A stretch of 22,489 nt of DNA, from positions 1 to 22,489 of IMG/VR virus record IMGVR_UViG_3300035698_013655; one strand, given 5' to 3'. Below, one piece after another: positions 12,082-21,443 of the stretch. The notes beneath the pieces were generated by a model that searched no databases, was not told where the DNA came from, and worked only from the letters and a program-made list of their open reading frames with translations. The number at the start of each line of letters is the position of its first letter. Within the stretch, counting starts at the first letter, position 1. This stretch comes from a virus. The position numbers were made by a program, and so were the translations under genes.

Positions 12082-13872
12082 ATGGATAATAATGTATCTG
12101 ATTTCCTTGCGTTCATGGAATCGCATGATCTGGCACCGACCGATACATCAGTGATAATTGCGGATGATATACAGAATTACTATCAGGTTGCCGGCAGTAA
12201 GAATAAAAAGAGCGGACACTATACCCTAAAATTTGAGAACGGTTACGCCACTGGATATGTGGCAGCCTACAAAGGCGATCAGAAATTCACTTATAACGTT
12301 AGGATAGGTGAGTCGCCCAGCATGGAGGAAATCCAGAAAAGCAAGGCGAAAGCAGCCAAGGCGAAAAAGCACCGTGGAATAGCTGAGCAGAAAGAGATAG
12401 AGGATACGTCCGAGCGTGCAATGGAATTGTGGGGACGCGCTTCACCCCCGTTCGACGATCCCGCCTATGCAGTCAAAAAACAGATAACGCTGGCTGGGGT
12501 GCGTGAGCTTGACGACGAACTTATCATACCCATGATGGACTCTGATTACAAAATATGGTCATTGCAGCGTATACTCCCAGACGGAAAGAAATTGCACCTT
12601 ACCGGCAAAAAAAAACGGGGGATATTTTTCCCCCTGATCGAGGATTCAGACGACAACTCTACTATATTCATTTGCGAGGGTGTTGCCACGGCTGCGACCG
12701 TCAGGGAAGCTATGGTCGAACACCCTGTTTATGCAGCGTTTGATTGCGGCAGTTTAAAGCATGTAGCCAAAGAGCTTCGACAAGCATTTCCGGCCGCAAA
12801 AATAATCATTGCCTGTGATAACGACGTATTCACCACCACACAATCAGGCGAGCCACAGAATCCGGGTGTGGAGGAGGGGCAGAAAGCAGCCGGCGCAGTA
12901 AAAGGCTTTGCAATCTACCCTGAGTTCGGTGATAACAAAGAAAAATATACGGACTATAATGATCTGAAAATCCGCAACGGGATTGACGAAGTTCGTAGAC
13001 AAATTCTGCAAAAGATGGCTTCTATGGAGCCTGACATTGCAGAGTCGCCCCCCTCGGTTCCAGTAGAGGCTCCTGCTACTAATGGTGTGCAATCCGGGGG
13101 GGGGTCGTTATCTCATAGGGGCCTGCCTTTCAGGATAATGGGGCAGGACAAAGGGATGTATTACTATTATTCATTCACCAAGGAGCAGCTAGTAGAGCTC
13201 AATGCTACCGCACATAACAAATTAAACCTACTCGGGATGGCTGAGGCAAATGAGTGGCTGGATGTCTACAGCGACGGCAATGGTGGCGGGCAGCGTCCCA
13301 GTATGTCCCAAATATCAGATGTTGCTGCCGATGATATGATGTCAACGGGCAGGAAACTCCCTATTTTTAACGGCAATGATCTCATGAGGGGTATTGGTGC
13401 GTGGATGGATGGCGGCCGGCGGGTGCTGCATTGCGGTGACTGTCTCTTTGTTGACGGGAAAAAAATGGGTCTGAATGATTTTCCAAGCAAATATATATAT
13501 GAAGCCAAAGTGGGGGTATCAACTCCAGCAAGTGAAATTCTGCCACCAAGCAGGGCGGTTAAGCTAAAAGAAATATGTATGATGCCTACGTGGGAAGATC
13601 CTACCGCCGGGATGGTGTTAGCTGGGTGGCTGGTGATAGCACCTATCGGCTCGATTCTTAAATGGCGACCGCACATCTGGATTTCAGGTGAGTCACAAGC
13701 GGGCAAGAGTACAATCCTAGAGGAAATAGTCGATCCTGTTCTAGGTGACTTTAAAATCAAATTGGATGGAGAGACCACCGAGGCGGGTATCAGGCAGAGG
13801 ATGGGCATTGATGCTAGACCGCCCATTTATGATGAAGGTGAAATGGATAGCAGAAAAACCGGGCGATTATGA
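12082..13872 (+). CDS. Primase-helicase (TOPRIM + DUF927-type), N-terminal part
   Basis: This 596-residue frame holds a TOPRIM domain (about residues 190-290, with FICEG at 197-200 including Glu199, and ACDND at 244-248) for RNA primer synthesis. Then comes a DUF927-type helicase domain whose Walker A is GESQAGKST at 536-544 and Walker B PIYDEGE at 581-587. No zinc-finger cysteines are seen in the N-terminal part. Just after Walker B the frame runs out of homology, reading SRKTGRL then TGA, while the next frame continues the helicase. The break is at an A5 run (13854-13858), where skipping one base restores the product. This may be a programmed +1 frameshift, a genuine mutation, or a sequencing or assembly error. 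Confidence 0.85.
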   Translation: MDNNVSDFLAFMESHDLAPTDTSVIIADDIQNYYQVAGSKNKKSGHYTLKFENGYATGYVAAYKGDQKFTYNVRIGESPSMEEIQKSKAKAAKAKKHRGIAEQKEIEDTSERAMELWGRASPPFDDPAYAVKKQITLAGVRELDDELIIPMMDSDYKIWSLQRILPDGKKLHLTGKKKRGIFFPLIEDSDDNSTIFICEGVATAATVREAMVEHPVYAAFDCGSLKHVAKELRQAFPAAKIIIACDNDVFTTTQSGEPQNPGVEEGQKAAGAVKGFAIYPEFGDNKEKYTDYNDLKIRNGIDEVRRQILQKMASMEPDIAESPPSVPVEAPATNGVQSGGGSLSHRGLPFRIMGQDKGMYYYYSFTKEQLVELNATAHNKLNLLGMAEANEWLDVYSDGNGGGQRPSMSQISDVAADDMMSTGRKLPIFNGNDLMRGIGAWMDGGRRVLHCGDCLFVDGKKMGLNDFPSKYIYEAKVGVSTPASEILPPSRAVKLKEICMMPTWEDPTAGMVLAGWLVIAPIGSILKWRPHIWISGESQAGKSTILEEIVDPVLGDFKIKLDGETTEAGIRQRMGIDARPPIYDEGEMDSRKTGRL

Positions 13873-14746
13873 GGGGGTGCTTACCCTCGCACGCAAAGCG
13901 TCGTCGAATAGCGGCGCTGAAACAATCAAGTTCGGGCAGAAGCCGTATAAGGGTATGTGGTGCGGGTGCTTTGCTTCCGTCACCCCGACACTGGAGAGAG
14001 AAACTGACATCAGCCGCATACTGATGCTCAAGCTAAAGAAAAACACCAAGCCGGACGCACAAGATCATTTCGATATGCTTAAAAATGCTATTGCCGATCA
14101 CCTGACCCCGGAGTTTCAGGCTGGCTTGATCGCCAGAGTAGTACATCACATGCCTACCATCGCTAAGAACATTGAGGTTTTTGTACGAGTAATACGCAGA
14201 CGGCTGGGAAAAGCTAGGGTAGCCGATCAGCTCGCTCCTATTTTCGCTGGGCTGTATCTACTTGAACATGAGGATGTGCTCGACGAGGATCGTGCGAACG
14301 AGTTCTTTGGACACTATGACTGGGATAAAATTTCGGCTGTAAAATCTGAGCCTGATTATTTGAAGTTGATTCGACATATCAGGATGCATATCACCCAGAT
14401 GCGAGATGGTATTAATTTACCCATGGACGCCAGCATAGGGCAGATGATTCACGTTGTTCACCGAAAAATTGACTGGGGTAAGATCCGCGTGAAGGAAGCC
14501 GACATATATCTACGGCTGGGATCGATAAAGATCCATAAGGAGCGTGTCTATATAGGCAATACGAATGCATTCCTATCGAAGATTCTACGTGAAACGGCAT
14601 GGGAAAAAAGCTGGAAGGACGTGCTGGGAGCATGCCCGGAGGCAAAAAGCGAAGGTAACACATATTTTAACGTATCAGATAGCCAGCGAGCCACATCCCT
14701 GCCACTTGAGATGTTCGTACATGAAGGGAATGATGTAGATGTTTGA
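13856..14746 (+). CDS. Primase-helicase C-terminal part (after +1 frameshift)
   Basis: In the next frame the helicase domain continues: KPGDYEGVLTLARKASSNSG follows directly from the Walker B region of the previous frame, then GMWCGCFASVTPTLERETDISRILMLKL, the beta-strand core, and a helical C-terminal region ending EMFVHEGNDVDV. The open frame itself extends upstream to 13745, but that part reads in the shadow of the first gene and is not helicase-like. If joined by a single-base skip near 13858, the full protein would be about 887 residues. If separately translated, it would need ATG 13829 or similar with little ribosome-site support. Its stop overlaps the next gene's ATG by 8 bases. Confidence 0.75.
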   Translation, partial: KPGDYEGVLTLARKASSNSGAETIKFGQKPYKGMWCGCFASVTPTLERETDISRILMLKLKKNTKPDAQDHFDMLKNAIADHLTPEFQAGLIARVVHHMPTIAKNIEVFVRVIRRRLGKARVADQLAPIFAGLYLLEHEDVLDEDRANEFFGHYDWDKISAVKSEPDYLKLIRHIRMHITQMRDGINLPMDASIGQMIHVVHRKIDWGKIRVKEADIYLRLGSIKIHKERVYIGNTNAFLSKILRETAWEKSWKDVLGACPEAKSEGNTYFNVSDSQRATSLPLEMFVHEGNDVDV

Positions 14747-19893: not shown

Positions 19894-19947
19894 TGCGCCT
19901 ACCAGAAGAGTTTGAATGCACACAATATACAAGGAGTGAGGAATGAT

Positions 19948-21291
19948 ATGTCAGCCTATTACAATGAATTTAAACCGGAAGCCGCACACATGCTTCGTCA
20001 GCTTATCACAGACGGGATTATTGCACCTGGTGATGTTGATGAGAGGAGTATTGTAGATGTTGGATCAGACGACCTCAAAGGATACACACAACACCACTTC
20101 TTCGCAGGTATTGGCGGATGGTCGGTTGCCCTGCGACTTGCCGGATGGGGTGACGACAGACCTGTTTGGACAGGCAGTTGCCCTTGTCAGCCTTTCAGCT
20201 CTGCCGGACGACAAAAAGGTAAAGCTGACGCTCGCCACCTATGGCCAGTCTGGTTTAACTTGATTAAGGAGTTGCGACCCGCTACAGTATTCGGAGAGCA
20301 AGTTGCATCGGCCGTAAATATGGGGGTTAAACGTGAAAGTGTGTTCAGTGTGCCAAACCGAGAAAGCGAAAGATATGTTCAGGTCGTACAAAGGGCGGTC
20401 GAAAGACGGTCTACGACCTCTCTGCATGATCTGTCAGAGGGAATACGAGAAGAAATGGCGGAGTACGTCAAAGGATTACAGGAAGAAACAGCGGCAAAAG
20501 AGGCGAGAAAAAGACAAGTCATACCGACAAAATTACATAGCCCAAAACAGGGCGAAATATCTGATTTCTCAGATTCGCAGGAATGCGAAGAAGAAAGAAT
20601 TGCCTTTCGACCTAGATGCTCATGTTGTGGAAATACAGTCACGGATAGATGTTGGAATATGCGAGGTGAGCAGCTACCCATTGGATATTGGAGTGCGGGG
20701 CGGGAGAGTGTTCAACACGCCGAGTATAGACCGAATAGTGCCAGAGAAAGGATATGTTTACGAGAACATAAGGATAGTGTGTTTTGCAATCAATGCCGCC
20801 TTTGGCGATTGGGGGTTGGAGAATACGAAGAAAGTTATGAACAGTTGGTTAGGAGATTCTTAAATGAACAGCCAAGACTTGCAGACGAGGTTAGATATAA
20901 ACTTGATGAGCCAATTGCCCACGGGTGGCTTGACGATGTTTATGAAGGGCTGGAGGCGGAAGACTACGCCGTTGGGTCGGCTATATTGCCAGCTTGCAGT
21001 GTCGGTAAAGCCCATAGGCGCAACAGATTATGGTTTGTGGCCCACTCCGAGGGCTACAAAGAACAATCATCAACAGAGGGGGGATTTTACACCAAACCTA
21101 GCGCAGAGGGTTATGGAGGCATCCACTGGCTTAACTGCCCCGACGAAAAAGCAAGGCCAGTTAAACCCGGCATTTGTCTGTTGGCTCATGGGGTACAGCA
21201 CCGCGCACCTATCCTCCATGCGTTTGGCAATGCAATCGTACCGCAAGTCGCGGCAGAATTTATCAAAGCAGCACAAGGAGCTAACCAATGA
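19948..21291 (+). CDS. Cytosine-C5 DNA methyltransferase with embedded HNH gene
   Basis: The 447-residue frame encodes a C5 cytosine methylase: FFAGIGG (residues 51-57, AdoMet loop), PCQPFS (79-84, catalytic Cys80), a variant FGEQVAS (EQV at 117-119, in place of ENV), KAHRRNRLWFVA near residue 360 and FGNAIVPQVAAEFI at the end. ATG 19948 has GAGG 6 bases upstream. Between residue about 123 (nt 20314) and about 322 (nt 20913) the frame runs through about 200 codons not expected in this family. These lie over an HNH endonuclease gene in the next frame. The conserved parts before and after are in one frame, so the insertion is a multiple of three and no stop interrupts it. Whether the product is active, cleaved or spliced is unknown. 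Confidence 0.75.
   Translation: MSAYYNEFKPEAAHMLRQLITDGIIAPGDVDERSIVDVGSDDLKGYTQHHFFAGIGGWSVALRLAGWGDDRPVWTGSCPCQPFSSAGRQKGKADARHLWPVWFNLIKELRPATVFGEQVASAVNMGVKRESVFSVPNRESERYVQVVQRAVERRSTTSLHDLSEGIREEMAEYVKGLQEETAAKEARKRQVIPTKLHSPKQGEISDFSDSQECEEERIAFRPRCSCCGNTVTDRCWNMRGEQLPIGYWSAGRESVQHAEYRPNSARERICLREHKDSVFCNQCRLWRLGVGEYEESYEQLVRRFLNEQPRLADEVRYKLDEPIAHGWLDDVYEGLEAEDYAVGSAILPACSVGKAHRRNRLWFVAHSEGYKEQSSTEGGFYTKPSAEGYGGIHWLNCPDEKARPVKPGICLLAHGVQHRAPILHAFGNAIVPQVAAEFIKAAQGANQ
20057..20263 (+). other. Alternate-frame ORF inside the methyltransferase, N part
   Basis: This 68-residue frame reads over the methylase region that encodes the AdoMet loop and PCQPFS. Its translation, MLDQTTSKDTHNTTSSQVLA and on to GQAVALVSLSALPDDKK and ATYGQSGLT, resembles proteins annotated near phage cytosine methylases, from memory. 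It stops before the inserted HNH gene. It may be only the shadow of conserved methylase DNA. Confidence 0.2.
20333..20863 (+). CDS. HNH homing endonuclease, nested in the methyltransferase gene
   Basis: The 176-residue protein has an N-terminal four-cysteine zinc finger (C4, C7, C31, C34), a strongly basic linker (residues 41-75) and an HNH-type core with C110, SIDRIVPEKGYVYENIRIVC at residues 131-150 and INAAFGDWGLEN after it. This is the usual homing-endonuclease layout. It starts with GTG 20333 (GGGGG about 5 bases upstream) and ends at 20863. It lies in the +1 frame relative to the methylase, inside the unexpected segment. The insert holds little beyond this gene, so there is no room for a full group I intron core. 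It probably copied itself into the methylase gene. Confidence 0.8.
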   Translation: MKVCSVCQTEKAKDMFRSYKGRSKDGLRPLCMICQREYEKKWRSTSKDYRKKQRQKRREKDKSYRQNYIAQNRAKYLISQIRRNAKKKELPFDLDAHVVEIQSRIDVGICEVSSYPLDIGVRGGRVFNTPSIDRIVPEKGYVYENIRIVCFAINAAFGDWGLENTKKVMNSWLGDS

Positions 21292-21304
21292 TACCAACAG
21301 TTGA
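20864..21304 (+). CDS. Alternate-frame ORF overlapping methyltransferase C-terminus (doubtful)
   Basis: This 146-residue frame starts at ATG 20864, directly after the HNH stop, and overlaps the methylase C-terminal domain in the +1 frame. It has KGWRRKTTPLGRLYCQLA, GLWPTPRATKN, LNPAFVCWLMGY and QSYRKSRQN. From memory, these patterns recur in proteins annotated beside phage methylases. It is in the same frame as the HNH gene and the 20057-20263 frame. It may be a truly overprinted gene, or the repeated shadow of conserved methylase DNA (RLWFVA and GNAIVPQ read in +1). Confidence 0.3.
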   Translation: MNSQDLQTRLDINLMSQLPTGGLTMFMKGWRRKTTPLGRLYCQLAVSVKPIGATDYGLWPTPRATKNNHQQRGDFTPNLAQRVMEASTGLTAPTKKQGQLNPAFVCWLMGYSTAHLSSMRLAMQSYRKSRQNLSKQHKELTNDTNS

Positions 21305-21443
21305 AGAGATGGTTGACCGCCTTATAAGGGGCGTAGTTACCAAGGAGCAGGCTATGCTATGGCTTGGGGAGCACTTCCGTAATGTAGGAGATAATGCTGT
21401 GGAACTCTACAGAGAGGGGACTTCTGCTTATGAAAACACTTGA
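21288..21443 (+). CDS. 51-residue protein, unknown function
   Basis: The frame MIPTVEEMVDRLIRGVVTKE and on is helical and acidic with a pattern of short phage proteins (K..QA..WL..H...). It overlaps the methylase end by ATGA (AAGGAG 8 bases upstream) and the following membrane protein gene by 14 bases. No family is recognised. Confidence 0.55.
   Translation: MIPTVEEMVDRLIRGVVTKEQAMLWLGEHFRNVGDNAVELYREGTSAYENT

Follow-up and report, generated by a model that had tools for sequence, protein, structure and literature searches.

How can a viral cytosine methylase gene carry an entire endonuclease reading frame in its middle and nevertheless remain open in its own frame? This question is raised by the stretch of DNA analyzed here (hereafter the window), which has 22,489 nt and represents an entire IMG/VR virus record (IMGVR_UViG_3300035698_013655). 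The features forming the interrupted gene are the following:

19948..21291, + strand: alpha, a C5 cytosine methyltransferase (ORF, PF00145, phrog_363, alignment with relatives)
20314..20913, + strand: insert of 600 nt, located after GEQVASA of alpha motif VI and ahead of the IAHGWLDD helix that precedes motif VIII (borders based on insert-free relatives)
20333..20863, + strand, alpha +1 frame: HNH-type, endonuclease VII-like ORF of 176 aa (phrog_3322, phrog_1035, relatives including L264)

The motifs FFAGIGG, PCQPFS, EQV, HRRNRLWFVA and GNAIVPQ were all found in a single open frame (19912/19948-21291; the TTG at 19912, upstream of 19948, is an alternative start). Alpha comprises 447 aa, 200 of which belong to the insert. 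It carries motifs I-VIII and X, and among these I, IV, VI, VIII and X could be named in the sequence. A Pfam search matched PF00145 in the alpha frame, and PHROG 363 (DNA methyltransferase) matched residues 11-458 with an E-value of 2e-65. In an AF2 model of alpha (43 sequences), the part preceding the insert has a pLDDT of ~90 and the motif X helix one of 93, with values from 31 to 85 inside the insert; the methylase core is modeled confidently and the insert is mostly poorly ordered. The top Foldseek matches of this model are C5 methylases, with weak scores (best E 2.5e-3).

The borders of the insert were determined using the loci of a viral scan and phages whose matches reach the junction, L196 and L008 being the nearest. 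In these insert-free relatives, the residue ending at 20313 is joined directly to the residue starting at 20914 and no host residue is lost; therefore, the insert is exactly 20314-20913. Thus, the alignment to insert-free methylases gives a precise length of 600 nt to what the original prediction had described as about 600 bases splitting the methylase motifs. The possibility that these 200 residues are a normal methylase domain does not hold, as insert-free homologs are the rule. The proposed HNH-type endonuclease in the +1 frame was recovered as well: the ORF extends from a GTG start at 20333 to a TAA stop at 20863, with a GGGGG at 20322-20326 upstream of the GTG, and is similar to phrog_3322 (E = 1e-27) and phrog_1035 (endonuclease VII; E = 2e-21). 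Only 69 nt of the insert lie outside this ORF. A PDB sequence search with the HNH protein revealed no credible relative among solved structures. Direct repeats flanking the insert, i.e., a target-site duplication at the DNA level, were not convincing in the window, L304, L306 or L307, and promoter and terminator scans gave results no better than chance.

A search for the same insert elsewhere was successful. The same site is occupied by the same HNH family in five further loci (L264, L304, L305, L306 and L307; six with the window), and the insert is absent from many relatives. Since five other loci carry a same-family insert at the same site, an assembly chimera, which had been considered initially, is very unlikely. 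The HNH of L264 lies in the same place and is 41% identical to the HNH of the window. L264 has an additional, different HNH at the motif X site, and its alpha runs for ~700 codons through both. Viral scans with the window HNH alone, or with the endonucleases of phages SBP and KpV2811 added, yielded zero same-site relatives; these were recovered when the L264 HNH was added.

The claim that the methylase frame stays open through the insert could be put in numbers. The alpha frame across the HNH ORF of the window has no stop, although the ORF contains 62 codons which would form an alpha-frame stop after a T; T precedes 0 of the 62. Within-gene synonymous shuffles of the HNH ORF produced a mean of 8.3 alpha-frame stops, and only a fraction of 5e-5 was without any (P = 5e-5). 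When the shuffles used the codon usage of the window, the mean increased to 12.1 stops and a zero-stop outcome was obtained in 0 of 20,000. The other frame contains 13 stops. The other same-site loci are likewise open, with 0 stops in L264 versus 6.4 expected (P = 2e-4) and 0 stops in L304, L305, L306 and L307 versus 6.8, 5.9, 4.5 and 4.5 expected, respectively. HNH ORFs located in the alpha +1 frame and inside the gene were found in 56 loci, a class size that permits statistical testing, and these have 0 alpha-frame stops versus 244 expected. HNHs of the same families situated beside the methylase, not inside it, serve as natural controls and have 18 (phage SBP), 6 (L308) and 2 (L309) stops in that frame. 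Since an avoidance of alpha-frame stops makes no sense otherwise, the alpha frame is probably read through the insert. Further, comparison of the window with L196 showed that 48 of 64 changes in alpha codons 1-100 and 20 of 40 changes in the 45 codons past the junction fall on alpha third positions. Such a bias on both sides of the insert would be as expected under continued selection on alpha, and part of the window-L196 divergence may predate the insertion.

What the original prediction had overlooked is that the host appears to be a dual-coded gene for two subunits, that the HNH lies in the frame of the second subunit, and that the insert seems to restart this subunit. Three further features concern this second polypeptide, beta:

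20057..20263, + strand: remnant of the original beta frame upstream of the insert (ORF list, codon agreement)
20864..20913, + strand: 3′ tail of the insert with a new beta start codon and a replacement for the beta N-terminal helix (gapless alignment to the family consensus)
20864..21304, + strand: beta′, TRD-like region and motif IX-like LNPAFVCWLMGY, 146 aa (phrog_1008 E = 2e-13, tblastn, alignment with 39 betas)

The host gene was analyzed in 192 different loci, drawn from bacterial genomes as well as viral contigs. In nearly all of them, the +1 frame is open from approximately nt 100-175 to just before the alpha stop, and the +2 frame mostly contains 5-25 stops. Synonymous shuffles exclude that the +1 ORF is a mere by-product of alpha codon usage, given that only 3 stops are seen between nt 300 and 700 in 179 loci versus ~400 expected. 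Fourfold-site entropy drops from ~1.75 to ~1.1 at alpha codon 101; hence, the constrained part of beta starts there. Based on an alignment with 39 beta sequences, beta has the pattern ..GSTLYKLTWKxxxTPxGR..WPTP..LNPAHSRWLMGLPPEW.., in which LNPAHSRWLMGLPPEW is the motif IX-like segment. This motif (LNPAxxxWLMGY) was found only in the +1 frame. In the monomeric C5 methylase gp69 of phage Starcevich the segment is present in line, and hhalign of the beta segment against gp69 gave an E-value of 1.4e-5 and a probability of 80. Using tblastn, beta′ matched +1-frame proteins which overlap phage C5 methylases. No credible relative of beta was found in a PDB sequence search; the AF2 model of beta′ is weak (pTM 0.30), and re-examination of its Foldseek candidates revealed no convincing match. 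Taken together, the host gene appears to encode alpha in one frame and beta, with a TRD-like region and the motif IX-like segment, nested in +1. Long dual-coded genes of this kind are very common in phages and prophages and are often annotated as one methylase, so that the second polypeptide is easily missed.

A described enzyme with a comparable organization is M.EcoHK31I, the second gene of which is located in an alternative frame within the first. Its large polypeptide carries motifs I-VIII and X, and motif IX is found on a second, smaller one (PMC3404938). By description, alpha and beta of the window resemble this pair, with motifs I-VIII and X in alpha and a separate motif IX-like segment. 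However, the predicted TRD of M.EcoHK31I belongs to the large subunit (PMC3404938), whereas the variable WPTP-containing region lies in the beta frame here, and the alpha of the window carries an HNH insert. In phage K1G, a ‘Mte8-like protein’ is annotated wholly nested in a C5 methylase. The ‘Mte8-like protein’ of Guernseyvirinae phages (K1G and others) corresponds to the same +1 second protein in the same methylase family; it is known by annotation only, and the methylases in question have no HNH insert, unlike the window. A literature search retrieved no functional study of the ‘Mte8-like protein’ and no explanation of the name ‘Mte8’.

The HNH frame is identical to the beta frame (alpha +1). 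Because the constrained start of beta (alpha codons 101-119) stands upstream of the insertion point, the insert severs it from the remainder. A beta-frame TGA (20261-20263), situated at alpha codon 102, terminates the old beta segment of the window. Within codons 101-119, the window shows a codon agreement of 0.30 versus 0.68 ± 0.07 in insert-free genes, and its agreement is normal in codons 21-100. Agreement in the old beta segment is likewise reduced in L264, L304, L306 and L307, and the segment has been released from codon constraint in these four loci and in the window. A new start is found directly after the HNH stop, where TAA is followed immediately by the ATG of beta′, and an AGGAG is located 8 nt upstream (20851-20855). 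The 16 residues fully encoded by the insert tail, MNSQDLQTRLDINLMS, align without gaps to SASAALQSSLASRLQA of the beta family, which suggests a rebuilt N-terminal helix. This match is short and its significance is moderate: the alignment score has a shuffle P of 0.0025 and is above 99.9% of window 16-mers, and the corresponding tail match in L264 has a shuffle P of 0.011. HNH and beta′ are separate cistrons in the window, whereas L264 and L304-L307 have the HNH joined in frame to the rebuilt beta helix, which reads SNxLSxxLxxRLxxRT..GSTLY in the latter four.

The anatomy of the locus, the borders and recurrence of the insert, the avoidance of alpha stops and the release of the old beta segment can be read from the sequences themselves. 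We consider it probable that a homing-type HNH insert resides in a dual-coded C5 methylase, with alpha being read through and beta being restarted from the insert. In such a scenario, an HNH-type homing element would have entered the gene past alpha motif VI and ahead of VII-VIII, at a point within the beginning of the constrained region of beta. The insert would never be spliced, and alpha would be translated through it, bearing 200 extra residues in a loop after motif VI. Its sequence would have to meet three coding demands, namely an HNH in the beta frame, a stop-free alpha frame and a 3′ tail restarting beta. The tail would provide a ribosome-binding site, a start codon and an N-terminal helix, such that beta is made anew from within the insert. 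HNH and beta′ would be produced from internal starts, and cleavage of insert-free alleles by the nuclease would allow the insert to spread. We infer that all three products are translated, that the methylase works in spite of the loop and that the element homes; a loop of 200 residues near the active-site motif VI could well impair the enzyme. An element of this type would illustrate how a homing gene can occupy a protein-coding gene in the absence of an intron or intein, namely through selection for an insert that can be read in the frame of the host.

The closest published case, which appears to be the same kind of element, is the ShiLan domain, one of the hidden out-of-frame HNH insertions (Arsenault, Gosselin and Gogarten, 2025, PMC11855218; Gosselin et al., 2023, PMC9957025). 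In that case, an insert of ~200 codons interrupts a phage DNA methylase gene at a codon boundary and leaves the host frame stop-free; an HNH in another frame starts from a GTG near the 5′ end of the insert, neither intron nor intein was found, and the distribution is patchy (PMC11855218). The window shares with ShiLan an insert between methylase codons which is absent from homologs, zero stops in the host frame and an out-of-frame HNH. However, the ShiLan methylase in phage Starcevich, taken as gp66, is of the N6/N4 type (PF01555) and its HNH is in the third frame, whereas the window has a C5 methylase and an HNH in the second (+1) frame; a comparison of the window HNH with the Starcevich ShiLan locus gave no match (E 7.9). 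The consulted text of the paper mentions neither a dual-coded host nor the rebuilding of an overlapping subunit (PMC11855218), and the window appears to have both. In OR475289 (phage Starcevich), an HNH-like ORF was detected in the third frame of the N6/N4 methylase gp66 (locus L325, ~1830-2390), which is presumably the published ShiLan-type element; it is weakly similar to the HNH of L135 (27%, E = 2e-5). A more distant parallel is the bypass in T4 gene 60, with the neighboring homing gene mobA, where the ribosome skips 50 non-coding nt (PMC5009743). As in the window, a homing-related insert in a phage gene is handled without splicing, but the insert of gene 60 is skipped and that of the window is kept readable in the host frame.

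HNHs were also detected elsewhere in the methylase. An HNH of another family lies between the end of beta and alpha motif X in L064, L135 and L202, yet another HNH family is present in the same gene in L010 and L137, and ~50 loci have other HNHs at the 3′ end of beta. A scan with the family found in L064, L135 and L202 gave 80 loci, mostly adjoining the N-part of a C5 methylase. In the 32 of the 56 loci that have a closely related alpha, the alpha frame runs on into a tail with a GN motif like that of motif X, although the tail of one of these (L234) is unlike motif X. Alpha ends ahead of the HNH in 19 loci, mostly more distant ones, yet the -1 frame of the HNH is free of stops there and reaches motif X in the examples inspected. 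We lean toward the view that widespread unspliced mobile inserts from several HNH families, a class so far undescribed, exploit dual-coded two-subunit C5 methylases; they would enter at either end of beta in its frame, evolve a stop-free alpha frame and rebuild the displaced end of beta.

Some related arrangements were observed in addition. Where the HNH is at alpha +2 (L225, L226, L260 and others), the C5 methylases are more distant and alpha ends before the HNH; the beta frame proceeds via the HNH -1 frame to motif X, placing motifs IX and X in one chain. HNH or endonuclease VII-like genes are found directly downstream of an intact C5 methylase in L048 (phage SBP, 1979-2455), L004 (phage KpV2811, 3474-3932), L308 and L309, and those of SBP and KpV2811 overlap the methylase 3′ end. 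Finally, the N-part of alpha and motif X are in different frames in L010, L017, L024, L034, L035, L040, L042, L043 and L055. Each of these loci has a tract of 8-9 G at the frame change or close to it; phase variation, slippage or assembly error may be responsible.

The main rival to a homing insert is a Vsr- or restriction-like role of the HNH, which we regard as unlikely. The HNH would then be a working partner of the methylase that serves in restriction or repair; its nested or neighboring position would be economical, and it would be linked to the recognition region of beta. A precedent for such proximity is vsr, which overlaps dcm. Three HNH families are represented within this methylase or immediately next to it, matches of one family mostly adjoin a C5 methylase, the endonuclease gene overlaps the methylase 3′ end in SBP and KpV2811, and HNH and beta are fused in L264 and L304-L307, all of which would suit a partner. 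However, insert-free genes are the rule, two different sites are occupied by unrelated HNHs, and L264 has two of them; for these reasons, repeated invasion of a conserved target fits better.

Less probable still is a methylase broken or split by the insert, with fragments that are inactive or complement each other and an alpha frame open only incidentally. The insert does adjoin motif VI, C5 methylases can function as fragments (PMC3404938), and alpha indeed stops before the HNH in ~19 distant loci. Nevertheless, the absence of alpha-frame stops in the six same-site loci and in 56/56 loci overall argues against it, as does the bias of window-L196 changes toward third positions of alpha, which is seen before as well as after the insert.

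Of the two options offered originally, a tolerated large loop is the better supported, and removal or bypass of the insert found no support. An intron, intein-like element or bypassed segment, resulting in a mature alpha without the insert, is very improbable, even though the insert sits between intact conserved segments and its length is a multiple of three. No Rfam intron family (group I or II) was detected in 19900-21310 at E up to 5, no Pfam family, and hence no Hint splicing domain, in the alpha-frame insert, and the 69 nt outside the HNH ORF are all that remains. Besides, removal at the RNA level or bypass would let alpha-frame stops accumulate, and none do. Although single ORFs of 200 codons do arise by chance in large data sets, an alpha frame open through chance or base composition is ruled out for practical purposes by the synonymous shuffles (P = 5e-5, with 13 stops in the other frame) and the 56-locus count (0 versus 244 expected), the beside-methylase controls containing stops.

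Elsewhere in the window, a Toprim primase/helicase-like ORF (12082-13872) ends and has an apparent continuation in another frame (13745-14746). The break is located at 13830-13870, near a run of A, and is possibly a frameshift or a sequencing indel.
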